IMG/VR virus record: IMGVR_UViG_3300033148_008077
Location: 1-43,552 of that record
From: a virus
DNA: 43,552 bases
Strand: one strand, 5' to 3'
Below the pieces are notes generated by a model that was not told where the DNA came from, did not search any database, and was given only the letters and a program-made list of their open reading frames with translations. The position numbers and the translations under genes were made by a program. Below, in pieces: positions 1,519 through 43,402 of the stretch; the first letter of the stretch is position 1; each line of letters starts with the position of its first letter.

Positions 1519-3459
1519 ATGCTCCCCAATGCCAGAAATATCTTTGAAGATCATTTATTAAAAGCTCTTAGGCCAAAAAAAAGATTACTAGTATGGCAAT
1601 GGGCCGACAAATTTAGGATGCTCTCAACAAAAGACTCTGCTGAGCCAGGTCTTTATAAAACATCCAGAACTCCTTACCTGAGAGAAATAATGCAAGAACT
1701 CTCTAGTGAGTCAAGAGCAAGAGTTGTTGTCTTTAAAAAAGGGGCCCAGGTTGGAGCAACAACAATTGGCCTTAATTGGATTGGATATATAATTGACCAT
1801 GATCCTGGGATGACTATGGTTGTCTGGCCATCTCTCTCAGATGCAAAGAAAAACTCAAAGATAAGAATTGATCCATTAATTGAGGCAACTCCTAATCTTA
1901 GAAAGAAAATTTCCTCTGGAAATAATAGAGATGCTCGTAACACTGGAATGTATAAAGATTTTAATGGGGGAGCTGTCATTGTATCAGGTGCCAATAGTGC
2001 ATCCTCATTGAGATCTGTACCTGCAAAAAATTTATTCCTGGATGAGGTTGATGGATATCCTGATGATGTTGATGGAGAGGGAGATCCAATCGCTCTGGTA
2101 ATGGCAAGATCCAGGACCTTTTCAAAAAGAAAAGCTTTTCTAGTCTCTACTCCTACCTATAAAGGCAATTCAAAAATAGATAGTAAATTCAAAACATCTG
2201 ATCAAAGATTTTTTTATGTACCATGCCCTCATTGTGGTGAGCATCAAATATTGGGCCATGAAAATCCTGAAAGACCTTTGGAGGTTTTTGATTATTTGAA
2301 ATATGAGACAGAGCAGACTGATGAGGGAAAGGTTGTCATCTCAGCATCTTTCTTTTGTAAAAAATGTGGTGAGCAAATCCAGGAGCATCATAAGACAAAA
2401 ATGTTTAATCTTGGAAAATGGGTAAAGCATAATCCAAAAAGTGACATACCAGGATTTCATTTATCAGGGACCTACTCCCCTCTTGGTTGGTACTCATGGA
2501 GAGATCTCTGCCAGGATTATGAAGATGCTTTGAGATCTCAAAAGGTTGAGGATATGAAAGTCTTTATCAATACAGGCCTTGGAGAGGTCTATGAGGATAA
2601 AGGAGAGAGACCTGCTGAGGAAATGCTTTTTCAAAGAAGAGAGCAATATGAAATTGGCACTGTGCCAAGGGGCGTTGTTTTCTTGACATGTGCAGTTGAT
2701 ATCCAAGCTGACAGACTTGAGGCAGAGGTCCATGGATGGGGTAGGCAGAGAGAGAGATGGTCAGTTGATAGGTCTTTGATCATTGGAGATCCTGATAAAG
2801 AAGAGGTCTGGGATGACCTTGAGGAGTATATCACTCAGACTTTTCCTCATGTTGATGGATTTGATTTGCCTATTCAAATTACTTTAATTGACTCAGGTTT
2901 TAAGGCCCATAGAGCTTATTCTTTTTGTAGAAAATTTGATCCAAGGAGAGTGATGCCAATAAAAGGGGTGTCTAACTCTGTGCAAATGGTCAATAGACCA
3001 AAGGCAGTTGATATAAAAGAAAATGGAAAAGTTGTAAAAAGAAATGGAATAAAATTATGGACTATAGGTGTCAATCTTATCAAGGCAGAGGTCTATGGAG
3101 ATCTGAAAAAAGAGGCCCCCATGGATATCTTGGAGGGATTTCCTCCTGGCTTTATTCATTTTCCTCAATATGAAAAAGAATATTTCTTGCAGCTCACAGC
3201 AGAGGAGAGGATGGTCTCCAAAGATAAGAAAGGATACACCACAATTGAATGGCATAAAAAAAGAGATCGAAATGAGACCTTAGATTTATATGTTTACAAT
3301 AGAGCAGCAGCGTCAATTTATGGGATAGATAGATTTAAAGATGAAAATTGGAAAAAACTAGAGAAAAATATAATGGTTGTAAAAAAACTAGAAAAGCTTG
3401 AAAATAGAGTTATTGAGAAAAACAAAAAAAAGAAAAGATCTAAATCAGGATACTGGTAA
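1519..3459 (+). CDS. Terminase large subunit (lambda GpA family)
   Basis: Predicted ATPase/nuclease that cuts concatemers at cos and drives DNA into the prohead. The N-terminal ATPase has a deviant Walker A (KKGAQVGATT, residues 73-82) and a Walker B-like acidic segment (NLFLDEVDGYP). A central zinc-ribbon-like insertion has CPHCGEH and CKKCGEQ. The C-terminal nuclease region begins near LTCAVDIQADRLEAEVHGWG and includes LIDSGFKAHRAYSFC. The C terminus is very basic (KNKKKKRSKSG). At 646 residues it matches GpA proteins (lambda gpA is 641). ATG 1519 follows directly on the methylase stop. GpA relatives normally act at cos sites, which supports reading the window ends as cos. Confidence 0.95.
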   Translation: MLPNARNIFEDHLLKALRPKKRLLVWQWADKFRMLSTKDSAEPGLYKTSRTPYLREIMQELSSESRARVVVFKKGAQVGATTIGLNWIGYIIDHDPGMTMVVWPSLSDAKKNSKIRIDPLIEATPNLRKKISSGNNRDARNTGMYKDFNGGAVIVSGANSASSLRSVPAKNLFLDEVDGYPDDVDGEGDPIALVMARSRTFSKRKAFLVSTPTYKGNSKIDSKFKTSDQRFFYVPCPHCGEHQILGHENPERPLEVFDYLKYETEQTDEGKVVISASFFCKKCGEQIQEHHKTKMFNLGKWVKHNPKSDIPGFHLSGTYSPLGWYSWRDLCQDYEDALRSQKVEDMKVFINTGLGEVYEDKGERPAEEMLFQRREQYEIGTVPRGVVFLTCAVDIQADRLEAEVHGWGRQRERWSVDRSLIIGDPDKEEVWDDLEEYITQTFPHVDGFDLPIQITLIDSGFKAHRAYSFCRKFDPRRVMPIKGVSNSVQMVNRPKAVDIKENGKVVKRNGIKLWTIGVNLIKAEVYGDLKKEAPMDILEGFPPGFIHFPQYEKEYFLQLTAEERMVSKDKKGYTTIEWHKKRDRNETLDLYVYNRAAASIYGIDRFKDENWKKLEKNIMVVKKLEKLENRVIEKNKKKKRSKSGYW

Positions 3460-5132: not shown

Positions 5133-7122
5133 AGGCCTGGTAAGGGCATCATTTCAGTCTGAGACTTTTAATGAAGAGCAAAGGACAGTTGAGCTTGTAT
5201 GGTCAACAGGTGGTCAAGTTAAAAGATACTCATGGATGAATGGAGAGTATATTGAAGAGCTCTCAATGAAAAAAGCAGATATTAATCTTGATAGATTAAA
5301 TGCAGGTGCTCCTCTGTTAAATAATCATCAAAGATACTCTCTTGAGGACTCAATTGGTGTTGTTGAAAAAGCATGGATCAAAGATAAAAAAGGTCATGCC
5401 CTTGTTAGATTTTCCAGTAGAGAAGAGATCCAGGGGATAGTTAAAGATGTACAAGAAAAAATTATAAGAAATGTATCAGTAGGATATAGAGTCCATAAGT
5501 TTGAGGACGTGACCAAAAAAGGTGATGAGATCCCAACTTATCGGGCAGTTGATTGGGAGCCAATGGAAATATCTTTGGTAAATATTCCTGCAGATGCAGC
5601 ATCTCAAGTAAGATCTGAAAAAGAAGAGGACCATTTTGAAATAGAAATTATAGAAAATAAGGAGCGTGAAATGCCAAAAGCTATTAAAGACATGAAAGAG
5701 AAAAAAGAGTTGATAGACTCGAATGAGCCTACCGATGTTATTAAGACAAAGAGTGATGACTCAAATAATGAGCCGACTCCTGAGCCTGCAGCAGTGGAGC
5801 CAAAAGAAGAGCCAAAGAGATCAGAGCCTGAGAAAAAAACTCCTGAGGTAAATGCTGATGAAGTTAGAGAGCTTGAAAAAACTAGAGGCATTGAGATCCG
5901 AAAAGCTTGTAAAACTGCTAAGCTTGACCCCTCTTTTGCTGAAAGTTTAATTGAAAAAAATGTAAACATTGAAGATGCAAGATCAGCAGTCATTGATGAG
6001 ATGGCAAAACGAGATGCAAAAACAAAAACTAATAACATTATTGTCGGAGGTAATGACGTGGACCAAAGAACACTGAGACTAGAGGCCGCTGCCAACTCGA
6101 TCATGCACAGAGCGACTGGTGGTAAAACTGAATTAATTGAGGGTGCAAAAGAGTATCGTGGAATGAGTCTTTTAAGACTTGCTGAGGAAATCCTTACTGC
6201 AAAAGGTGACAAGGTTAGAGGCCTTACATCAAATGAAATTGCAGAGAGAGCTCTTCATCATACATCAGACTTTATTGAGATCCTTGCAAATGTTGCAGGT
6301 AAATCTCTAAGAGCAGGATATGATGATCAACCACAGTCTTATGGATCTTTTACTAGAGAAGTCACTGTAAATGATTTTAAAGAAATTTCTCGTACACAAT
6401 TAGGAGATGCCCCTGCTCTTGAGAAAGTAAATGAGGATGGAGAATATAAGCATGGATCAATGAGTGAAGCTGCTGAGAAATACAGCATTGCAACTTATGG
6501 TAAGATTGTTGGTATTACAAGACAGACTCTTGTAAATGATGATCTTGATGCTTTCAGTAGATTACCAGAAATGTTTGGCCGTAGGTCTCGAGATCTTGAG
6601 TCAGATCTTATTTATAAAGAGATTACTTCAAATCCAGTAATGGCAGATGGAAAAACTCTTTTCCATGCTGATCATGGCAACTTGGCAGGTGCAGGTGCTG
6701 TGGTTGGCGTGACAACTATTGGTGCAGCTCGATTGGCCATGAGACTTCAAAAAGGTCTTAGTGATCGGCTTATCAAGATTACTCCAAAGAATATTTTAAT
6801 TCCTGTTGCTCTTGAGACAAGTGTTGAACAATTTTTAGGTCAAATAGTACCTAGTGTAAATGGTGAGGTAAATCCATTTACAGGCAAGCTTGGCATGATC
6901 CCTGAGGCATTGCTTGATGCAGACTCTGCAACAGCATGGTACTTGCTTGCAGTTAAAGGACAGATTGACATGATTGAGCTTGCACGTCTTGCAGGTCAAA
7001 GTGGTCCGACTCTTAGCTCTAAAGCAGGATTTGAGGTTGATGGTGTTAAATTTAAGATCTCTTATGATATCGGTGCAAAGGTTATTGATCATAGAGGCTT
7101 TTATAAAAATGTTGGTGCATAG
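5110..7122 (+). CDS. Prohead protease / major capsid protein fusion
   Basis: A single 670-residue polypeptide carrying head maturation protease and shell protein. Residues 1-170 resemble the HK97-type prohead serine protease: LLNNHQR holds a candidate catalytic His (73) and RNVSVGYRV a candidate Ser (123). About 170-310 is a charged, proline- and glutamate-rich, partly helical stretch that could act as scaffold (EPTPEPAAVEPKEEPK, then coiled-coil-like sequence). From about 316 it resembles the Mu gpT-type major head subunit (FTREVTVNDFKEISRTQLGD, GITRQTLVNDDLDAF, LFHADHGNLAG). The start is ATG 5110 because GGAGAGG lies just upstream; an ATG at 5065 lacks this. Autocleavage presumably releases the shell protein. 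Confidence 0.92.
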   Translation: MKKIKIPKGLVRASFQSETFNEEQRTVELVWSTGGQVKRYSWMNGEYIEELSMKKADINLDRLNAGAPLLNNHQRYSLEDSIGVVEKAWIKDKKGHALVRFSSREEIQGIVKDVQEKIIRNVSVGYRVHKFEDVTKKGDEIPTYRAVDWEPMEISLVNIPADAASQVRSEKEEDHFEIEIIENKEREMPKAIKDMKEKKELIDSNEPTDVIKTKSDDSNNEPTPEPAAVEPKEEPKRSEPEKKTPEVNADEVRELEKTRGIEIRKACKTAKLDPSFAESLIEKNVNIEDARSAVIDEMAKRDAKTKTNNIIVGGNDVDQRTLRLEAAANSIMHRATGGKTELIEGAKEYRGMSLLRLAEEILTAKGDKVRGLTSNEIAERALHHTSDFIEILANVAGKSLRAGYDDQPQSYGSFTREVTVNDFKEISRTQLGDAPALEKVNEDGEYKHGSMSEAAEKYSIATYGKIVGITRQTLVNDDLDAFSRLPEMFGRRSRDLESDLIYKEITSNPVMADGKTLFHADHGNLAGAGAVVGVTTIGAARLAMRLQKGLSDRLIKITPKNILIPVALETSVEQFLGQIVPSVNGEVNPFTGKLGMIPEALLDADSATAWYLLAVKGQIDMIELARLAGQSGPTLSSKAGFEVDGVKFKISYDIGAKVIDHRGFYKNVGA

Positions 7123-7156
7123 AGTTAAAGTAATTAATTAATGATAGGAGTATTAG

Positions 7157-7495
7157 ATGAAAAATTTTATTCAGTCAGGTCAGAAAATGACTTTCATTGC
7201 TGCTGCAGACGTTGAGTCAGGTGAGCCAGTAGTAATTGGTGATTTTACAGGTATCTCTAGTGGTAAATATGCCACAGGAGAAGAGGGAGAAATGCAGTTG
7301 ACAGGTGTTTATGAACTTGCAAAAGAGGCAGCTCTTGCAATAGCTCATGGTGATGTTGTCTATTGGGATGGATCAGCAAAAGAAGTTGATAAGACAAATA
7401 CAAATGATGCCCTTGGAGTTGCTTTCAAAGCTGCTGCAGGTGCAGATACAAGCGTAATTGTCTTAATGAAAGGTGGCTCTGCTGCTTTTAATTAG
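7157..7495 (+). CDS. DUF2190 capsid cement/decoration protein
   Basis: Predicted head-stabilising protein that binds the outside of the expanded shell. The 112-residue sequence has the family pattern: MKNFIQSGQKMTFIAAADVE, SGEPVVIGD, GEEGEMQLTGVYELAK, HGDVVYWDGSAKEV and ALGVAFKAAAGADTSVIVLM. It has a good ribosome binding site (taggag, 7146-7151) and is followed by a strong terminator, as expected for a product needed in hundreds of copies. Confidence 0.88.
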   Translation: MKNFIQSGQKMTFIAAADVESGEPVVIGDFTGISSGKYATGEEGEMQLTGVYELAKEAALAIAHGDVVYWDGSAKEVDKTNTNDALGVAFKAAAGADTSVIVLMKGGSAAFN

Positions 7496-7514
7496 TAGAA
7501 AAAATTAAGGCCAT

Positions 7515-7547
7515 TGGAGGGGAGCCTTTAATCCCCTCCATTTTTTT
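7515..7547 (+). terminator. Rho-independent terminator after the cement gene
   Basis: A 9-bp perfect stem (TGGAGGGGA at 7515-7523, TCCCCTCCA at 7532-7540) with an 8-base loop is followed by seven T. It separates the head genes from the connector and tail genes and probably allows partial read-through. Confidence 0.88.
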
Positions 7548-7556
7548 GGAGCTTAT

Positions 7557-7922
7557 GTGCCAATTGATTTTAGAGATAGAGTAAATAGAGTCTTAAATCT
7601 CTCCAAAAAAGAATTTGGTGAGGACTGTACTCTCTATCCTGAGAAAGGTGGTACACATAAGATAAGAGGTATCTTTGACAATGAGTATGAGGCAATTGAT
7701 CCTGATACAGAGCAAGTCATAAGTGCAAATCAACCTGTACTCGGAGTAAATCTTTTTGATTTTTCTTTTGAGATAATGGTTGGTGATAAAATAAAAATAA
7801 GAAATCTCTTGTATAAAATTTACGACAAGAGAGAGGATGGGCAAGGTGGTGCATCCTTAATTTTACACAGATGTGATCATGGACAGAAAGTATTTAAGAA
7901 AAAAGGTGATAGAAGTTCTTAA
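7557..7922 (+). CDS. Head-tail attachment protein (lambda FII-like)
   Basis: Predicted head-completion protein closing the connector and providing the tail docking surface. The 121-residue product has the FII-type beta-barrel pattern (TLYPEKGGTHKIRGIFDNEYEAID, then GVNLFDFSFEIMVGDKIKI and LYKIYDKREDGQGGASLIL). GTG at 7557 is the likely start, with GGAG at 7548-7551. The ATG two bases earlier is in another frame and closes quickly. It overlaps the next gene by 44 bases. Confidence 0.75.
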   Translation: MPIDFRDRVNRVLNLSKKEFGEDCTLYPEKGGTHKIRGIFDNEYEAIDPDTEQVISANQPVLGVNLFDFSFEIMVGDKIKIRNLLYKIYDKREDGQGGASLILHRCDHGQKVFKKKGDRSS

Positions 7923-25326: not shown

Positions 25327-25614
25327 ATGGCAAGGCATCCTAAGTTTGGAGTTTTAGAGATAGATGGCGAAGAGCTTGGGGGGCCTGTTGAATACGTCCC
25401 AGTAAGCGAGGATGTATACTATGACCCTAGTTACAGCGAGACGGTCAAGACAAGAATTGATCGTTTTGCTGATGGCTATGGTGATTTTTTTAAATGGTCT
25501 TTAGATCAAGATTTAATTATCCCTGGCAACAGAAGTAAAATTGTTGCCAGGAAAATTCAACTTAATAACTTCAAGCTTGAGTTAGAGCTTGGGGCAAAAT
25601 TGGAAATATCATGA
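25327..25614 (+). CDS. Small protein with distinct codon use, unknown
   Basis: 95 residues, RBS taggag at 25312-25317. It is acidic and beta-rich (GVLEIDGEELGGPVEYVPVS, then ARKIQLNNFKLELELGAKLE). The first 150 bases hold more CpG than neighbouring genes. It overlaps the next gene by 4 bases, so belongs to the tip cluster; no family recognised. Confidence 0.6.
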   Translation: MARHPKFGVLEIDGEELGGPVEYVPVSEDVYYDPSYSETVKTRIDRFADGYGDFFKWSLDQDLIIPGNRSKIVARKIQLNNFKLELELGAKLEIS

Positions 25615-27954: not shown

Positions 27955-28035
27955 ATGATGGGCCTGTACTATTTTTTAATGATGATGCTATTATTTACAG
28001 CAATGGCAATAATAGTCTCTTTTCCTGATGCATAG
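27955..28035 (+). CDS. Possible 26-residue membrane micropeptide
   Basis: ATG directly after the preceding TAA, ending TAG at 28033-28035. The peptide is almost entirely hydrophobic (MMGLYYFLMMMLLFTAMAII, then VSFPDA), one membrane span. Its place as the last late-operon product before a terminator would suit a small lysis or holin-like helper. No strong ribosome binding site, so coding status is uncertain. Confidence 0.4.
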   Translation: MMGLYYFLMMMLLFTAMAIIVSFPDA

Positions 28036-28065
28036 GAGGGATTACTCAATCCCTCTGGCCTTTTT
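28036..28065 (+). terminator. Terminator at the end of the late operon
   Basis: An 8-bp stem (GAGGGATT at 28036-28043, AATCCCTC at 28048-28055), a 4-base loop, then after five bases a run of five T. The stop codon of the leftward gene lies inside the stem, so it stands between convergent transcripts. Confidence 0.6.
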
Positions 28066-28287
28066 AAGAGCTATGAGCTCCTTGGTCTTTTCTACAAGTC
28101 CATAACAACTACTAGTTTGATTGAGAGTGATCTTGATGGACTCAGCAATAATTTCTTGCTCGAGATCCTTAAGAGCATCTTTTTTTGAGACTTTCTCATC
28201 AGGTGTTGTCTCAGGATTTTCATTAGGTAAAAAATCCTGTTGATTATCCATAGTAGAATTTTGAGTCTTATTTGACTTCTTTGACAT
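28042..28287 (-). CDS. Only leftward gene: small charged protein, unknown
   Basis: 81 residues read leftward. The strong ribosome binding site (AAGGGGG just before the ATG on the minus strand) supports a real gene. The first 35 residues are polar and low-complexity (SKKSNKTQNSTMDNQQDFLP), followed by a helical, charged half (KKDALKDLEQEIIAESIKIT, then VEKTKELIALKKARGIE). It sits between the late operon end and the early genes, where regulators are common, but I see no HTH. A small inhibitor or anti-terminator-like role is speculation. Confidence 0.65.
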   Translation of the reverse strand: MSKKSNKTQNSTMDNQQDFLPNENPETTPDEKVSKKDALKDLEQEIIAESIKITLNQTSSCYGLVEKTKELIALKKARGIE

Positions 28288-28317
28288 ATCGCCCCCTTGA
28301 TATATTTGAATAGGTAA

Positions 28318-28345
28318 ATAGTAGGAAAAATATGAGGATTTGCAA
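28318..28345 (-). promoter_or_regulatory. Candidate leftward promoter
   Basis: Read on the minus strand: TTGCAA (28340-28345), a 16-base spacer and TACTAT (28318-28323), each 4 of 6 consensus bases, ending about 30 bases before the leftward ATG. Weak match; the location is the main support. Confidence 0.3.
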
Positions 28346-28403
28346 GTAATTAATTTTTATCTGGACAGATCATGTGAAAATAAACAACGATTTTAATGTG
28401 TAA

Positions 28404-28420
28404 AAAATATAGCATATTTT
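28404..28420. repeat. Inverted repeat in the early-gene control region
   Basis: AAAATAT-AGC-ATATTTT is a perfect 7-bp inverted repeat with 3-base centre, 14 bases before the ATG of the small HTH-like gene. It could be an operator in the gap (28288-28434) between divergent genes. It is AT-rich, so chance is possible. Confidence 0.4.
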
Positions 28421-28434
28421 AATTAGGGGTTGAC

Positions 28435-28620: not shown

Positions 28621-29555
28621 GTTTTTTCCAAAAAATAACAAGAGGCAGGATAAAAAAACCTCTCTTCATGGTGCTCTATTCATCAGGAGGGGTAGGAAAA
28701 ACCCAGGTAGGGCACTCCTTTCCTGATCCTTTCTTTTATGATTTTGAAGAGTCTACCCATAATATTGACGTAAAACGTCACAGACCAACTGACTTTGAGG
28801 AGGTCCTTACAGACCTCCAAGAGGTCTTAGATGAAAAAGAAATTACTGATTTCAAATCTATAATTTTTGATACAGTTGATGAACTTGAGAGATTGATCCA
28901 TAAGCATGTGGCCAAAGATAAAAAGAAAAATTCTATTGAAGATATAGGATGGCAAAAAGGCTATGACATTGCCATTACATATTGGGCAGAGCTCATTTCT
29001 CTTTGTAGGCAAATAAGAGATAAGCATAAAATCCATTTTTGTTTCCTTGCTCACTCCTTTGATAGATCTAGTACCTATATTGAAAATGGGGAGTCATATC
29101 TAAGACACTCCATGGCACTCCATAAGAAAGCAGCAGACTTTCTCTTTGCACAGGTTGAGATGGTCCTTTTTGCCAAAAAGGATATAGCAATCAAGATCAA
29201 AGATGATCGGGCAATCGTTAGAGATCTTGAGACAAGAAAAGTCTATACTAATTTATCAGCTCACTATGATGCCAAAAACAGAGTAGGATTACCTCCTGAG
29301 ATGCCCATGCCATACTTTGATGGGGTAGGTAATAATAGAGGTCTATTCCATGTTGTCTATGATGCCTATAATAAGGCTTTCACAGAGACTCCTGAGGTTG
29401 TTTTAAAGGAGTGCCTTGACCAAATACCTAATGTCCAGGATGAGGCACTTAGAGAGCAAATGAGCAGCTTTGTCGAGTCTAATAAAACAGATCTTTCAGT
29501 CCTAAGAGCAACATTAGTAAAGATTAATTCATACATCAAAGGGAGCACTAAATGA
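28617..29555 (+). CDS. Sak4-like RecA-fold ATPase (AAA_24), single-strand annealing/recombination
   Basis: 312 residues. Walker A is SSGGVGKTQ (residues 22-30), followed by FFYDFEESTHNIDV and a Walker B-like FKSIIFDTVDELERLI. FCFLAHSF resembles the sensor strand of this family. Sak4 proteins are short RecA-like annealing factors of phages that work with an SSB. The next gene, overlapping by 4 bases, encodes an SSB-like protein, which supports the role. Confidence 0.8.
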   Translation: MSFFQKITRGRIKKPLFMVLYSSGGVGKTQVGHSFPDPFFYDFEESTHNIDVKRHRPTDFEEVLTDLQEVLDEKEITDFKSIIFDTVDELERLIHKHVAKDKKKNSIEDIGWQKGYDIAITYWAELISLCRQIRDKHKIHFCFLAHSFDRSSTYIENGESYLRHSMALHKKAADFLFAQVEMVLFAKKDIAIKIKDDRAIVRDLETRKVYTNLSAHYDAKNRVGLPPEMPMPYFDGVGNNRGLFHVVYDAYNKAFTETPEVVLKECLDQIPNVQDEALREQMSSFVESNKTDLSVLRATLVKINSYIKGSTK

Positions 29556-30055
29556 GCCAGGTAGTAAAATTTAAAGTAGGTGATCGAATAATTACAAAAG
29601 TTAGAAATTGGGCAGTAGGTAAGTCAAAAGAAAAGGGTACAAGATTTGTAAGAGTCAATCTTGATAATTATATTACATGGACAGGATGGGTCACTAAAGC
29701 AGCTCTTGAGCATACTTTAAAAGCTCTTGAGACTATGGGATTTAAGGGAGCTGATCTTTCTATGATCCAATATCCCAATGCTCTTAATTGTGAGGTTGAG
29801 GTTGTTGCAGTAATTGAAGAGCTCAGAGAGTACAAGGGCAAGACCTATTATGAGGCAAGCTTTATTAATAAAGTTGATGAGGCAGGTTTTAAGGAAAGCA
29901 AAGAGTCAGATGAGACAATTGAGTTTTTTAAGCAGATAGATACTAGGGCATATATTACAGATGCCAAAGACATTTCAGGGCCTGCTGCAAATGATTTTAA
30001 TCCAGGTAATCAGTCAGCAAGTGAGGACTTTGCAAATCAACAGATACCATTTTGA
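29552..30055 (+). CDS. Single-stranded DNA-binding protein-like
   Basis: 167 residues. After a beta-rich N-terminal half (VVKFKVGDRIITKVRNWAVG, NALNCEVEVVAVIEELREYK, YYEASFINKVDE) comes a flexible polar stretch ending in NQQIPF, resembling the acidic/aromatic tip of SSBs (usually DDIPF) though with Gln instead of Asp. Coupling to the Sak4-like gene supports the call. Confidence 0.7.
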   Translation: MSQVVKFKVGDRIITKVRNWAVGKSKEKGTRFVRVNLDNYITWTGWVTKAALEHTLKALETMGFKGADLSMIQYPNALNCEVEVVAVIEELREYKGKTYYEASFINKVDEAGFKESKESDETIEFFKQIDTRAYITDAKDISGPAANDFNPGNQSASEDFANQQIPF

Positions 30056-30115
30056 TGGTCTCTTGAGACCATAGGGGGCAATAGAGGGAGGAGTGACGAG
30101 TCATCCTCCTCCCTC
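30055..30115 (+). other. Tandem hairpins after the SSB gene
   Basis: First hairpin: perfect palindrome ATGGTCTC-TT-GAGACCAT (30055-30072), touching the stop codon. Second: GAGGGAGGAG (30084-30093) with CTCCTCCCTC (30106-30115), its loop holding a further TGAC/GTCA pair. Only TTCTT follows, so they may terminate, protect the 3' end, or act on the next start. Confidence 0.7.
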
Positions 30116-30135
30116 TTCTTACAAAGGAGAGTAAG

Positions 30136-30453
30136 GTGAAAAATGATCCAAAGACTAGAGACTCAGTTGCAATTTCTGAGACAATAGCTGAGATGATGGA
30201 TTGCAAATGCACAGAGGCATTTTCTATAGACATCCTAACAGATGCAATGACCCGATTACCTTTTAATACAACACTTTGCTTTGATAAAATATATGGCAGA
30301 TGGATTTTCAGTAATCAGGATGAGTCCTTTTGGCCCAATGGATTACCTGATTATCAGTGCTATGGGCCTGACTTTACCTTTGTAGATCATACTCCTGATA
30401 TGGCAATTGCAAGGGGTATTCACTATTACTATCATAAGAAAATTAAGGATTAA
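30136..30453 (+). CDS. Unknown early protein
   Basis: 105 residues, GTG start with aaggaga (30124-30130). Contains aromatic-rich C terminus (GLPDYQCYGPDFTFVDHTPD) and a MMDCKCTEAF segment. No family recognised. Confidence 0.6.
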   Translation: MKNDPKTRDSVAISETIAEMMDCKCTEAFSIDILTDAMTRLPFNTTLCFDKIYGRWIFSNQDESFWPNGLPDYQCYGPDFTFVDHTPDMAIARGIHYYYHKKIKD

Positions 30454-31067: not shown

Positions 31068-31642
31068 AAAAAGTAATAGCAATTGCCTGTGATATTGAGT
31101 GTACCTCCTGGGATATTCATGGGGGAGATCTTATCTCATCAGCAATGGTTGAGATCCTTGAAGATTATGCTCTTGGTAGATCAGAGATATTTTATTCAAG
31201 ACCTAGAGGATCTAAATACTTCACAGATAAAGCAGCAGAGATCCATGGGATATCATATTGGCAAGCTCAGACCTTTCCTGATGCTAAGGACTCATGTCTC
31301 AATATGATGGAATGGCTTTCTCCATTGCTCCCTAAATTTCCTTTAAAGATGATCCAACATGCAGCAGGTAATTTTGATTTTAGATGGATGGAGAGTCACT
31401 TTAAGAAAGAAGATTTCCAGTCCTCATTTTGGAAAGCCTTTAAAAAAGAAGATACTGAGTCAACTCTTTACATGGCAAAGAGACAGCTTGTTCATCTTAA
31501 AGATCATAAGCTCCCTACTATCTGTGAGCACTATAGTATAGAGCTTGATCATCACAATGCTCTTTCAGATGCAAAGGCATGTGCAAAGATATGGTGCAAT
31601 CTTAAACAGGATAAAGATACCTGGACAGGTAAATTATTATGA
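31064..31642 (+). CDS. DnaQ-type 3'-5' exonuclease (DEDDh)
   Basis: 192 residues of the RNase H-like exonuclease fold. Exo I is ACDIECTSWD with Asp 10 and Glu 12. Exo II is HAAGNFDFRWM. Exo III is HHNALSDAKACAKIW with the His and Asp of the DEDDh subclass. Probable role: proofreading or end trimming in replication or recombination. Overlaps by 4 bases with both neighbours, next to the replication genes. Confidence 0.85.
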   Translation: MKKVIAIACDIECTSWDIHGGDLISSAMVEILEDYALGRSEIFYSRPRGSKYFTDKAAEIHGISYWQAQTFPDAKDSCLNMMEWLSPLLPKFPLKMIQHAAGNFDFRWMESHFKKEDFQSSFWKAFKKEDTESTLYMAKRQLVHLKDHKLPTICEHYSIELDHHNALSDAKACAKIWCNLKQDKDTWTGKLL

Positions 31643-32079
31643 AAAAAATTGTAGCTTTTATGATGGGAGATGAGATCCCATCAAATGCCATCTTTGTTCA
31701 CTGTGATCAACTTAGAAACTTTTATTATGAGATACCTATCTCTGATCCTTTGAAAGTCCCAAAGGATGATCATAAGGAGACCATAGAGACAGTTATTGCT
31801 TATCTAAATGCAAAGGTAGGGTCAAAGTACACATCAAAGTCAAAAGCTACCACAAGCTTAATAAGAGCTCGCTTAAATGAGGGCAGGACTCTCCAAGATT
31901 TCAAAGCAGTAATAGATAGAAAGTCAGATGAATGGTTGGGAGATCCTATATGGAGCATGTATCTAAGACCTCAGACTCTTTTTGGCAATAAGTTTGATGG
32001 ATATTTATCAATGAAGTCAGGCAAAGAGATGGATGATGATACATTTAAAGAGCTTGATAATCTAATGGAGGAAAAATGA
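31639..32079 (+). CDS. Replication protein with Phg_2220_C domain
   Basis: 146 residues. From about residue 50 the pattern is that of the conserved phage C-terminal domain: TVIAYLNAKVGSKYTSKSKA, LIRARLNEGRTLQDFKAVID, RKSDEWLGDPIWSMYLRPQT, LFGNKFDGYLSMKSGKE. In larger phage proteins this domain follows a DNA-binding N terminus; here the N terminus is only about 50 residues. Likely part of the replication initiation complex together with the ATPase at 32582. Confidence 0.8.
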   Translation: MKKIVAFMMGDEIPSNAIFVHCDQLRNFYYEIPISDPLKVPKDDHKETIETVIAYLNAKVGSKYTSKSKATTSLIRARLNEGRTLQDFKAVIDRKSDEWLGDPIWSMYLRPQTLFGNKFDGYLSMKSGKEMDDDTFKELDNLMEEK

Positions 32080-39547: not shown

Positions 39548-39614
39548 CTATTTTACTCTCCAAAATAAGCTCCTAGAGAAAAAGCCATACTTAGGTATAG
39601 GCAATAGGTCCCAA

Positions 39615-39700
39615 GGGCATTTGCCGCCCCTCCCTGCAGTCCACGATGGGCAAAGAGGGGCGGTAGCATCGGTCTAAATAGACCGCTGCCATGTTTTGTT
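39615..39700 (+). ncRNA. Candidate structured RNA in the gap after the early genes
   Basis: Two adjacent hairpins, richer in G+C than the surroundings. First: CCGCCCCTC (39624-39632) with GAGGGGCGG (39655-39663); its loop contains GGGCAAA, complementary to TTTGCC just 5', so a pseudoknot is possible. Second: GGTAGC and GGTCT (39662-39675) with AGACC and GCTGCC (39680-39690) around an AAAT loop, followed by TTTTGTT. It may be a small RNA with its own terminator, or a leader. No known RNA family recognised. Confidence 0.5.
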
Positions 39701-39712
39701 AGAGTGCATTAA

Positions 39713-39740
39713 TTGATCCTAATCAGAAGTGTAGTAAAAT
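39713..39740 (+). promoter_or_regulatory. Candidate promoter for the gpZ-like gene
   Basis: TTGATC (39713-39718), 16-base spacer, TAAAAT (39735-39740). The resulting leader of about 100 bases contains the hairpin at 39802-39821. Confidence 0.5.
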
Positions 39741-39801
39741 AGATATATGCCAAGGACGGCCATAAATAATTCCTTTGTTTATACTTCATTTAGCTCCTGA
39801 T

Positions 39802-39821
39802 AGATCTCATGGATGAGATCT
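39802..39821 (+). other. Leader hairpin upstream of the gpZ-like gene
   Basis: AGATCTCAT-GG-ATGAGATCT is a perfect 9-bp inverted repeat, flanked by two copies of CTGATAG (39797-39803 and 39829-39835). There is no T-run and the following gene has a poor ribosome binding site, so the hairpin may control its translation. Confidence 0.55.
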
Positions 39822-39844
39822 CTATTATCTGATAGAATAGTCCT

Positions 39845-40459
39845 ATGAGCTTAGAAATAAATATTTTAAATAATCTTCATGCAATGGATGATTTCTTAAG
39901 TGACTTCAAGGTAAAGGTAGCTGTCCAGGCAACTAGATCTGCTATTAACAGGACCCTAGTCTCTACCAGGAAAGAGGCAGTCAAGACTTTAAGGACTAGG
40001 CTCAACATCAAATCAACTACTCTCAAAAGAAAGCACATATCTCTCTCAAAGGTAAGAGGCGGCTCACTCTCCTCAATGACAGGCTCAATCAATTTTAATG
40101 ATAATCCTATGCCCCTCCTAGATTTTGTAAAGGGCCATAAGAATATTATTAAGCAAAAGGGCATTAAGGTAAAAAAGAGGAGAAAGCTCAAGGTAGAGGT
40201 AGTCAAAGGCAAGAAGATTACTCTCAAGACAGCTTTTATCCAAAAGGTAAACTCTAAGCAAGTCTTTAAGCGTGGCAGCTCAGGATTTAAGCGTCAAGCT
40301 GTCTCAAGCATAGGTACATGGGTATCCAGGAGAGCTTTTAAAAAGCCTATCATGAGAGAGGCCAGGGCAAGATTTAATATTGAGTTTGATAGGCAATACA
40401 GCTTTAGGATGGATAGAGCTCTAGGCAAGGTCAAGTCCTCCAAGGTAAGAAAGAGATAG
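39845..40459 (+). CDS. Minor tail protein Z-like (tail completion)
   Basis: 204 residues, strongly basic. AVQATRSAINRTLVSTRKEA and VKTLRTRLNIKSTTLKRKHI, then TLKTAFIQKVNSKQVFKRGS, match the lambda gpZ-type tail protein family, which joins the tail terminator end to the head. It is placed about 31 kb from the other connector genes and has its own promoter-like sequence, unlike the standard order (FII, Z, U). Confidence 0.7.
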   Translation: MSLEINILNNLHAMDDFLSDFKVKVAVQATRSAINRTLVSTRKEAVKTLRTRLNIKSTTLKRKHISLSKVRGGSLSSMTGSINFNDNPMPLLDFVKGHKNIIKQKGIKVKKRRKLKVEVVKGKKITLKTAFIQKVNSKQVFKRGSSGFKRQAVSSIGTWVSRRAFKKPIMREARARFNIEFDRQYSFRMDRALGKVKSSKVRKR

Positions 40460-40467
40460 CTCAATAA

Positions 40468-40504
40468 ATGGGCACTTATCCTATGCCCATCAATTACAAT
40501 TTTT
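40468..40504 (+). terminator. Possible terminator after the gpZ-like gene
   Basis: ATGGGCA (40468-40474) pairs with TGCCCAT (40484-40490); five T follow nine bases after the stem. The gap between stem and T-run makes it weak. Confidence 0.45.
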
Positions 40505-40566
40505 GCCATCATAATTTGTAGGAATATTTAAAACATATAAGAAATTGAGTCATAGCAGTCACTTAC

Positions 40567-40607
40567 AGCTACAAAGAATATTGTAGCTATGAAAAAAATT
40601 CATAGCT
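40567..40607. repeat. Overlapping inverted repeats upstream of the 136-residue gene
   Basis: AGCTACAA (40567-40574) pairs with TTGTAGCT (40581-40588). AGCTATGAA (40585-40593) pairs with TTCATAGCT (40599-40607). The two repeats share AGCT at 40585-40588, so as RNA they exclude each other, and as DNA they form four spaced half-sites. A TATATT (-10-like) lies at 40630-40635. Confidence 0.6.
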
Positions 40608-40669
40608 CTGGAATAAGACATCTCCATGGTATATTGAGTCAACAACTTAATAAACAAAGGACCCTATAA

Positions 40670-41080
40670 GTGAAAGGATTAATTGTGACTATAATGCTCT
40701 CAGCAAATGTACATGCAGGATGTCTTGATCATGCAAATATATTTATTGAAAATACCAAAAGGACAATGCAGAAAATCAGCACTCAAGATATGGAGCATAT
40801 CATCCAGGATTGGATGGATAGTCAAAATAAAGAGCAAGGATATCTTAAAGGTCTAACTCCTGAGTGGAATATAACAAATGTACATGATCTGAGAGCAGAC
40901 CTGTCAAATAATCTTAATAGAAAATATCAAAATATTATAGGCAATCTAGATCATGAGAGGCACGTTATTGAATTGCAGGAAATGGGTATAAATATGGATG
41001 ATGAGGCAGTAGCCATCTTTCTTGAAGATATTCAAATAATGTTGGTCCTCAAAGAATGGAGAAAAAGACTCAGTGAGTAA
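40670..41080 (+). CDS. Small secreted protein, unknown
   Basis: 136 residues, GTG start. Short signal peptide (KGLIVTIMLSANVHA, cleavage before GCLDH), then a helical acidic mature part (WRKRLSE end). It could act in the periplasm. It is the first gene of a short run of coupled small genes ending at 42198. Confidence 0.55.
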   Translation: MKGLIVTIMLSANVHAGCLDHANIFIENTKRTMQKISTQDMEHIIQDWMDSQNKEQGYLKGLTPEWNITNVHDLRADLSNNLNRKYQNIIGNLDHERHVIELQEMGINMDDEAVAIFLEDIQIMLVLKEWRKRLSE

Positions 41081-41309
41081 GCAATATCCAAAACCATGCA
41101 CAATGCCAAAACTAAATAGTGGAGATGAGATTTCTCATAATTATGATTATTGTGAATGTGATATAGAGGCAATGAGAGTAAATATAGAAATGCTTAGACT
41201 TGAAAACAATAGGCTTACAAATGCAGTCATTAAGCTTGCTGAGTCAACCAAAGACGCTGTATACAAAGCATTACATCAACCATGGAAAGAGAGTGATCTT
41301 CATGAATAA
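41073..41309 (+). CDS. Unknown small protein with Cys and coiled coil
   Basis: 78 residues, GTG start overlapping the previous stop. DYCECDIEAMRVNIEMLRLE reads as a coiled coil. No family recognised; GGAG upstream is rather distant. Confidence 0.5.
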   Translation: MSKQYPKPCTMPKLNSGDEISHNYDYCECDIEAMRVNIEMLRLENNRLTNAVIKLAESTKDAVYKALHQPWKESDLHE

Positions 41310-41424
41310 TGGTGATTTCATAATGGAAAATATTGGAGCAATTGTATTTGGTCTTGGATATACAGCAATTGTGATAATGCTCTTTTTTTGGTCTGTTATT
41401 AATTTATGGAGTTTAAGAAAATGA
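41302..41424 (+). CDS. Small membrane protein, 40 residues
   Basis: ATG 41302 overlaps the previous stop. One membrane segment (GAIVFGLGYTAIVIMLFFWS). Followed at once by the next gene (ATGA). No family recognised. Confidence 0.5.
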   Translation: MNNGDFIMENIGAIVFGLGYTAIVIMLFFWSVINLWSLRK

Positions 41425-41597
41425 GTAAAACTATTAATTCAGAGCTCGGAAAAGGAAAGCCTAATATCTGTGATTACTGCAAAGGGAAAATGGAGCCACA
41501 TGAGTTAAATTATGAGGCAAAAATCCATCATGGAGCAATTGACTTAAGGTGTATCAATAGAAAGTCATGTGAAAAAAGAAAAAAGAGGAGTAAGTGA
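41421..41597 (+). CDS. Small zinc-site-like protein
   Basis: 58 residues from ATG 41421 (GGAG at 41408-41411); ATG 41406 is an alternative. CDYCKGKM and CINRKSC suggest a zinc ribbon. Basic C terminus (EKRKKRSK). Confidence 0.5.
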   Translation: MSKTINSELGKGKPNICDYCKGKMEPHELNYEAKIHHGAIDLRCINRKSCEKRKKRSK

Positions 41598-41932
41598 ATT
41601 TTACTTATGATTTACCAAATAAAGACTATGGAGTAAAAATGAGTTTATCAAAAGAGGACATAGATAGATTGAATAAGAAAATAATTGAAGATGAGGGGGT
41701 CAAGAGGCCATTACCAAATTGTGGTAGCAGCGTGATGCCTCCTGGTAGCATTAATCCAATTAATATATCAAAAATTGATATATCCTCTGAGTTAGGAGAG
41801 GAGCTTGAGAGGATGCATGACATCATCAATAAGAATGGAGGCTCTGCCAATAAAGAGATGAGGCAATGGGCAATGGATAAGATTGAGATTATTTATAATG
41901 CGCTATTTACAGCGAGATGGGTGGCAAAATGA
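41594..41932 (+). CDS. Unknown protein
   Basis: 112 residues, GTG start set by AGAGGAG (41584-41590). Helical, with a Pro/Gly loop (PNCGSSVMPPGSINPINISK). No family recognised. Confidence 0.5.
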   Translation: MNFTYDLPNKDYGVKMSLSKEDIDRLNKKIIEDEGVKRPLPNCGSSVMPPGSINPINISKIDISSELGEELERMHDIINKNGGSANKEMRQWAMDKIEIIYNALFTARWVAK

Positions 41933-42198
41933 CATATAAAGCAATAATCATTGACAGTGTTGGTAATTTTAAATCAATTGGGGAGCTCACAATAGACATG
42001 AAAATAATTGTGACAGAGCGTAGAAATCCTTTGTTAATTGATGAGACAAACGGTCTTCTTGTTGAGTGCCTTGATTATACACTTGGTCATGACATGATGA
42101 TTGAGTCTACACAGATGCTATCCTGGAAAGAAAGACCACCATCACTAATTGAGGTAAAAGTAAAAGACCTGATAAATAAAAATAATAGAAAAGCTTAA
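41929..42198 (+). CDS. Unknown protein
   Basis: 89 residues from ATG 41929 (ATGA with previous stop). Mixed alpha/beta (MTYKAIIIDSVGNFKSIGEL). Last gene before the long gene-free stretch. No family recognised. Confidence 0.5.
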   Translation: MTYKAIIIDSVGNFKSIGELTIDMKIIVTERRNPLLIDETNGLLVECLDYTLGHDMMIESTQMLSWKERPPSLIEVKVKDLINKNNRKA

Positions 42199-42265
42199 AA
42201 TAGACACTCTGCTCAAAAAAAAACTCTGGACATGTGATGAATATTTCTGAAAACTCTTAGGACAG

Positions 42266-42308
42266 GAAAAAAAAAGAGGTAATGCCTATCAAAACAATTA
42301 CCTCTTTT
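42266..42308 (-). terminator. Strong leftward (bidirectional) terminator
   Basis: A 12-bp perfect stem (42272-42283 with 42297-42308) and 13-base loop. On the minus strand it runs into about nine T (42267-42275 is all A on the + strand), so it best serves leftward transcripts. On the + strand only four T follow, but it may also end the small-gene operon. Confidence 0.75.
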
Positions 42309-42973
42309 AAGAACAAAACATGGATCTATTGTTACATAAAAAAACTTTTCAATACAACAATAAAAATAAAATAAGTAATATTTTCATATCGGGCAAAGTG
42401 AGGTCAGTAGATACCTCCATGGGGATGCAATGTGTCCACGCTATCCCATGCAAGTCTACTCGGGCAAAAAACGGAAGAGGGCCTATGCTTTTATAGGATA
42501 CTGATTTGATGCCACTCCTGATCAACATACTAGTGATCTGTTTTGGAGTTTTTAACCATCTTTGAAGTGGTTTACCGCCACGAGCTACCAAGCGTTGAGA
42601 TGCTTTACAGTCTCTTGGAAAGGACTAATCTTTAAGCTTTATTTAAAGTTTAAAAAAGACCTCTTATAAAGAAGTCTTAAGATCGAACTATGTCAAAAAA
42701 AGGCCTATTACTCAGACTTGAGTAGACAATATATTAAGTCTCTTCTTAAGATTAAGAGCTTATTTAAACTCTTAATTTTAACATTCAAGACTCTTATATA
42801 AACAAATAGTTTTAGTCTAGTTTAGTGCTTAGTAAGCCTTTTAATTATAGTAATTAAATAATTGACCAGTGGTCAGTATTACTTCTTTTAGGATAGATAA
42901 ATTAGAAGTTTTGTTTTATTTCACATTTGCCAAGGGCAAATGATCTCAGTAGTTAACCAGTGAGGTGGTATTT
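42309..42973. other. Large gene-free stretch
   Basis: About 660 bases without a convincing gene. The left third (42372-42600) is richer in G+C. The right part is very A+T-rich with many short repeats: CTTAAGAT twice (42675 and 42745 areas), an 8-bp hairpin 42751-42776, five TAGT words at 42807-42833, TTAATTA-TAG-TAATTAA (42841-42857), TGACC-AGT-GGTCA (42863-42875) and ATTTGCC-AAG-GGCAAAT near 42925-42941. This could be a replication origin or control region. Confidence 0.45.
42390..42468. other. Nested inverted repeat bracketed by CGGGCAAA direct repeats
   Basis: Direct repeats CGGGCAAA at 42390-42397 and 42461-42468 enclose nested inverted arms: AGTAGA (42406-42411) with TCTACT (42455-42460), and CATGGGGAT (42418-42426) with ATCCCATG (42443-42450). 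The stretch has more G+C and CpG than its surroundings. It may be part of a leftward RNA ending at 42266, or a small inserted element. Confidence 0.5.
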
Positions 42974-43402
42974 ATGGGCAACATATGGAGTTATATGAAA
43001 GATAATTCTAAGTATGATCTTAGTAGAAAGAAGAAGAAAAAAAAGAAAAAGAAAATTAGTAAGAAGAGATTAGATCCTCTTAAAGATCGTAAGTCAGGGA
43101 TACTTTGGTTTAAGAGGATGTGGCACTCATCCAATATGTACATAGGAGATGAGGAGAGGAAAGACTTATTCAATGAGATGATAGGGGCATATGAGGTCAC
43201 TTGTGTAAATCAATATTACAGGTATGCATTAGTGGTTAGGTCATGGAGAAATGATGCATATTACTCTAGTGGTAATGCCAATTCATTCTTTAAATCAAAA
43301 GATATTCAATTGATTTTCATGAGACCTGGGCATATGTATGATCTTGAGAATACTATTGCTATAGTTAAATCTATTAGAGCAAAGATTGATAAGGTAGATT
43401 GA
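42974..43402 (+). CDS. Polylysine-bearing protein, unknown
   Basis: 142 residues from ATG 42974 (gaggtg at 42962-42967). After residue 18 there is a run of nine lysines within a very basic stretch that could bind nucleic acid, followed by a folded part (SGILWFKRMWHSSNMYIGDE, YRYALVVRSWRNDAYYSSGN). Codon use matches the phage. Rightmost gene, expressed apart from the others. No family recognised. Confidence 0.6.
   Translation: MGNIWSYMKDNSKYDLSRKKKKKKKKKISKKRLDPLKDRKSGILWFKRMWHSSNMYIGDEERKDLFNEMIGAYEVTCVNQYYRYALVVRSWRNDAYYSSGNANSFFKSKDIQLIFMRPGHMYDLENTIAIVKSIRAKIDKVD

Follow-up and report, generated by a model that had tools for sequence, protein, structure and literature searches.

What does this phage keep in the largest gene-free gap of its genome, and what would a leftward terminator end there, where no leftward gene is apparent? 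The window analyzed is the whole IMG/VR record IMGVR_UViG_3300033148_008077 (43,552 bases), which belongs to an uncultured tailed phage, the closest named phages being the Wolbachia phages WO (~45% identity in the large terminase). It contains a terminase pair of lambda type (193-765 and 1519-3459) with a methyltransferase gene in between, structural genes for portal, head protease/capsid protein, tail sheath and tape measure protein, and a rightward replication module encoding Sak4-like annealing, exonuclease subunit, replication initiator/helicase loader, ParB-like and RuvC-like proteins; no tRNA genes were found in the window. All clear genes run rightward, with the exception of an 81-aa gene on the minus strand (28042-28287). 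This leftward ORF, situated in the 27955-28434 gap of the early control region, displays gene-like codon use and has a syntenic relative in the related record G007 (E 6e-8), its sequence indicating that it is probably the sole true leftward gene of the window.

The gap under study covers 42199-42973 (775 bases), between the plus-strand genes 41917-42198 and 42974-43402. The initial annotation had correctly regarded 42266-42973 as free of genes, but the true extent of the gap begins further left, at 42199. The gene that adjoins it on the right encodes a 142-aa lysine-rich orphan protein for which no family or relative was found, and starts with an ATG at 42974 preceded by GAGGTGG at 42962-42968. 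For comparison, 46 loci with a related terminase were gathered, one of which (L022) belongs to G007, a record of 41.9 kb in which the terminase gene runs across the record ends and TerL is 71% identical to that of the window over the first 367 residues. The hexamer ACTGCT occurs at both the start and the end of the window record (43552/1), and the joined ends resemble the L022 sequence upstream of terS, a likeness equalled by 2 of 300 shuffles. The break point of the record is thus, by its sequence, probably the cos site, which would place the gap ~0.6-1.3 kb to the left of cos.

No coding signal was detected in this gap. All six frames of its G+C-richer island give negative coding scores, and a tblastn comparison with 4576 ORFs of relatives produced no match to the gap, the genes at 40-43 kb being likewise without matches. 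The sole minus-strand ORF of the stretch, already singled out for its TTG start and odd composition, was located at 42349-42591 (80 aa) and is indeed anomalous: its codon score (-0.196 bits/codon) is below those of all 71 genes (lowest gene, -0.10), for which reason it is judged not to be a gene, and its GC content at codon positions 1/2/3 is flat (0.40/0.40/0.41 vs 0.46/0.33/0.29 in genes). It shows neither a ribosome-binding site nor a family or tblastn match, and a search of viral contigs for relatives of this ORF and of its left-hand and right-hand neighbours retrieved none. Codon periodicity, ribosome-binding site and homologue tests all speak against a gene, and a decayed or unrecognised minus-strand gene, at these positions or longer, appears most improbable despite a frame that stays open for 91 codons and a G+C content above that of its surroundings. 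The GC skew of the gap (0.03 vs a mean of 0.17 in the genome, ~4th percentile) lacks the usual excess of G over C, as expected of sequence that does not code rightward. Gene-free and devoid of coding signal, 42199-42973 has in this respect the properties of a locus for a phage-encoded long non-coding RNA.

The skew also bears on a replication origin within the gap, a reading put forward in the initial annotation and one to which the A+T-rich stretch with inverted repeats might lend itself. DnaA boxes are nevertheless absent from the region, as are iterons and tandem repeats; the cumulative skew curve does not turn at the gap but only flattens, with no inversion; and the initiator/helicase-loader gene (31639-32079) is 10 kb away, all of which leaves an origin at this site scarcely credible.

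Two intrinsic terminators, both facing left, are contained in the gap. The first, T1 (42272-42308, minus strand), corresponds to the previously noticed 12-bp stem with nine T, and consists of a perfect stem (42272-42283/42297-42308) enclosing a 13-nt loop, with four of the nine T pairing within the stem. It was not reported by a terminator scan limited to loops of up to 8 nt, since its loop exceeds that size. When stems of at least 8 bp followed by T were scanned over the window, T1 was the only stem of at least 11 bp with a T-tract, none being found in 10 shuffles, and it is among the two most stable minus-strand hairpin-plus-T sites of the window, the other being inside a plus-strand gene. 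The second, T2 (42656-42678, minus strand), had escaped earlier notice; it has a 10-bp stem including one G-U pair, a 3-nt loop and six T, and lies 350 bp to the right of T1, so that both fall within 410 bp. In a stricter scan, T1 and T2 were the only minus-strand sites with a stem of at least 10 bp. Together they provide the termination signals expected of a minus-strand RNA in this gap.

Folding was then considered for the sequence to the right of T2, where an A+T-rich leftward structured stretch, element A (42657-42948, minus strand), was delimited from fold energy relative to shuffles and from pairing probabilities. Its minus strand reaches -72.5 kcal/mol (z -5.6), none of 200 shuffles being equally stable, so the A+T-rich palindromes pointed out at the outset are present and stronger than had been stated. 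Among 146 sampled 300-nt windows only one or two are as extreme, comparable folding being seen at 30001 (minus, z -6.1) and 25201 (plus, z -5.0). The predicted fold is closed by the stem 42948-42942/42684-42678 and comprises three hairpins (42942-42924, 42909-42881 and 42875-42863) and a long rod of nested helices (42851-42687), with the T2 hairpin immediately adjoining, the closing helix ending at the start of the T2 stem; main helices have pairing probabilities of 0.7-0.98, and the predicted helices of A include 42746-42758/42769-42781 and 42736-42742/42787-42793. A discrete RNA would be expected to look like this, a closed fold directly followed by a terminator that faces the same way. The plus strand of element A also folds (z -3.6), since the folding DNA is largely palindromic. 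Its minus-versus-plus difference in stability is within the lowest 7% of length-matched windows, in a record where the minus strand usually gives the less stable fold, presumably owing to the G-rich coding strand.

That either strand of element A can fold is in line with a different reading, in which its A+T-rich palindromes act at the DNA level on the cos-proximal/terminase operon, serving as operators, as a late promoter or as a site prone to cruciform formation. Two of them lie just upstream of gene 42974, namely TGACCAGTGGTCA (42863-42875), which might be either a hairpin of element A or an operator-like site, and CATTTGCC-AAG-GGCAAATG (42924-42942), directly upstream of the ribosome-binding site of that gene. 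Each of them, however, occurs as a single copy in the window (an exact one for the former), the gap scores poorly for promoters on the plus strand, and neither the terminators nor the strand asymmetry would be explained, so that DNA-level control of this kind is regarded as unlikely.

Between both terminators lies the G+C-richer element B (42392-42640, minus strand), in which three hairpins are predicted side by side (42549-42514, 42513-42463 and 42460-42406). Emphasis had been given in the initial annotation to nested stems at 42372-42600 flanked by repeats. The repeats are there, CGGGCAAA being found on the plus strand at 42390-42397 and 42461-42468 only and reading UUUGCCCG in a leftward RNA. 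On the contrary, the stems do not go beyond chance (z -1.1 to -1.3): 42372-42600 exceeds the neighboring sequence in G+C content, but its folding is on a par with that of shuffles, and element B alone has a non-significant z of -1.3. When element B is taken together with T1, the minus strand is favored over the plus by -12.7 kcal/mol, a difference in the bottom 1% of 210 windows of matched length, and element B may represent a second RNA or a read-through part. GGGCAAA, pointed out at the outset as recurring, is an ordinary motif, with 13 copies on both strands against ~6.5 expected. When the gap was compared with the remainder of the phage, in direct and in antisense orientation, the matches were no better than those of shuffles.

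Relatives were inspected for a similar arrangement. Large gene-free gaps just ahead of the terminase genes are conspicuous in two of the 46 loci, L022 and L004, as they are in the window. The best leftward terminator of G007 has a 12-bp stem as well, and is found in a gene-free cos-proximal gap, directly after a plus-strand gene and 1.8 kb before terS. The 250 bases beside it reach -72.4 kcal/mol leftward vs -52.9 rightward (z -2.5), a strand asymmetry below the 1st percentile, and terminator and leftward-folding stretch together (L022 2346-2590, minus strand) were delimited by terminator scan and folding as a positional analogue of the window locus. A cos-proximal leftward terminator accompanied by a leftward-folding stretch is therefore present in both phages; since no common sequence or structure is detectable, the likeness is one of position rather than demonstrated homology. 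The window gap, aligned locally with those of L022 and L004, scores no higher than shuffles do, and the L004 gap has no such leftward terminator; L004 does carry, close to this region, a leftward endolysin-like gene (6779-7585, minus strand; phrog_435, E 1e-14) just before its neck gene. One might imagine from these models that phage RNAs of this type, leftward, structured and cos-proximal, form a rapidly evolving class conserved in position, terminator and fold rather than in sequence, with the window elements A/B and L022 2346-2590 as members and a role late in infection, e.g., in packaging or in the timing of the terminase operon; the proposal is speculative, and we regard it as improbable on present grounds.

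A further gene-free gap precedes cos in G007 (L022 3205-3761), containing a G+C-rich island of 50-58%. Its GC profile is similar to that of the window gap, and it shows repeated CCGAYTG-like motifs and no family match. A long-range 5'/3' helix on its minus strand was discounted because of a whole-gap z of 0.2, and its plus strand folds slightly better. This last feature, together with the fact that cos and the terminase genes lie downstream of the window gap, would suit a rightward structured leader RNA of the late operon, such as an antitermination element. In the window, however, it is the minus strand that folds better and T1 and T2 both face left, which makes a rightward leader very doubtful.

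Homologues of the proposed RNA were sought by several routes. No Rfam family matched the window at gathering scores, and below them only chance-level matches appeared in 39550-43000, none of them to GOLLD or ROOL; a blastn search with the region in phage and plasmid sequences returned only short A+T-rich chance matches. The covariance search suggested for the 42372-42600 element brought no relatives to light: single-sequence covariance models built from the A rod and from part of B, run over 36 sources, and one of B, run in six genomes, matched only the window itself, and no sequence or structure homologue of element A or B was found in the relatives searched. Regarding promoters, no strong one was seen on the minus strand of the gap when sigma-70-like sites were scored; the best sites are mediocre, ranking 30th and 59th genome-wide. 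A phage-specific promoter for a leftward RNA might still be present.

These results must be weighed for another possibility, that T1 and T2 merely halt stray or antisense leftward transcription before the rightward operon, with no RNA function in the sequence between them. Terminators facing the end of an operon are commonplace, and the lack of homologues and of a strong promoter, as well as the shuffle-like stability of element B, would be in agreement with it. It leaves unexplained, on the contrary, the strong minus-strand fold of element A and its junction with T2, as well as the presence of 775 bp of such sequence in a compact genome, and insulation alone is considered a real, although distinctly less probable, explanation.

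Considering that (i) the gap is non-coding, (ii) T1 and T2 both face left, (iii) the fold is strand-biased, and (iv) G007 holds a positional analogue, a leftward non-coding RNA is the best remaining reading, and the models tip the balance slightly in favor of the gap encoding one or two orphan RNAs of ~300 and 690 nt. The leftward RNA of the initial annotation is thereby retained while its focus on 42372-42600 is abandoned, and the A+T-rich part would probably be the RNA itself rather than merely its promoter. From the computed lack of coding signal, both terminators and the strand-biased fold of A, we infer a transcript, its start and its promoter, the promoter being the weakest link of the mechanism. 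With its start near 42950, where gene 42974 has its left edge, transcription would proceed leftward, the transcript folding into the closed multi-branched element A and a first RNA of ~300 nt ending at T2 (~42652). Element B would be added either by transcription running past T2, giving an RNA of ~690 nt, or by a second start near 42640; in both cases the end would be at T1 (~42267), which might also shield the upstream, oppositely oriented operon from leftward transcription. Other long phage non-coding RNAs are thought to act as RNA during infection; to our knowledge, they are hardly catalogued beyond a few named families. As a guess, the leftward RNA would most likely act as RNA too, in a regulatory or scaffold role during infection, control of the neighboring gene 42974 being the first candidate effect.

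Several known phage RNAs offer points of comparison. The Vibrio phage ICP1 produces a ~800-nt non-coding transcript of unknown function from a ~1-kb ORF-less gap, detected by RNA-seq as its most abundant transcript (PMC7567579); both loci are long gene-free phage gaps with no tRNA genes nearby, whereas the window RNA is predicted from sequence alone. GOLLD and ROOL are large, ornate structured phage RNAs, likewise of unknown function (PMC12286853), which the window candidate resembles in being phage-encoded, large and, by prediction, structured. Unlike it, they have many conserved covarying members, often (not obligatorily) near tRNA genes, while the window has no Rfam match and no tRNA genes. 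STnc6030 of the Salmonella prophage BTP1 (786 nt) is transcribed against the late-gene direction and has a tested exclusion function (PMC7067206); the candidate would likewise be long and read in that direction, but STnc6030 is antisense to genes, whereas the strand opposite the candidate is free of them. The lambda OOP RNA, a regulator of cII, whose 3' end it overlaps (PMC7067206), is similarly non-coding and directed against the neighboring phage genes, although the window candidate overlaps no gene and lies near cos.

With 775 bp free of genes in a compact phage, two counter-facing terminators and a strongly folding strand, the locus represents a concrete, testable non-coding RNA candidate, and the similar arrangement in G007 suggests where to look among these phages. 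Should no transcript arise from it, the locus would instead illustrate the extent to which terminator and folding signals can deceive when taken by themselves.

Other structured sites were observed in the window. Two adjacent, very stable hairpins (39622-39685) lie between operons, upstream of the neck gene, the 39601-39700 fold having z values of -4.2 (minus) and -3.2 (plus), and by this folding they might serve as a terminator in both directions or as a processing site. Hairpins of 15 and 11 bp at 25434-25551 (z about -6) are inside the coding sequence 25327-25614, which is unusual for a gene. Finally, a strong intergenic hairpin is located at 30083-30116, between 29552-30055 and 30136-30453, in a 300-nt window with a z of -6.1 on the minus strand.
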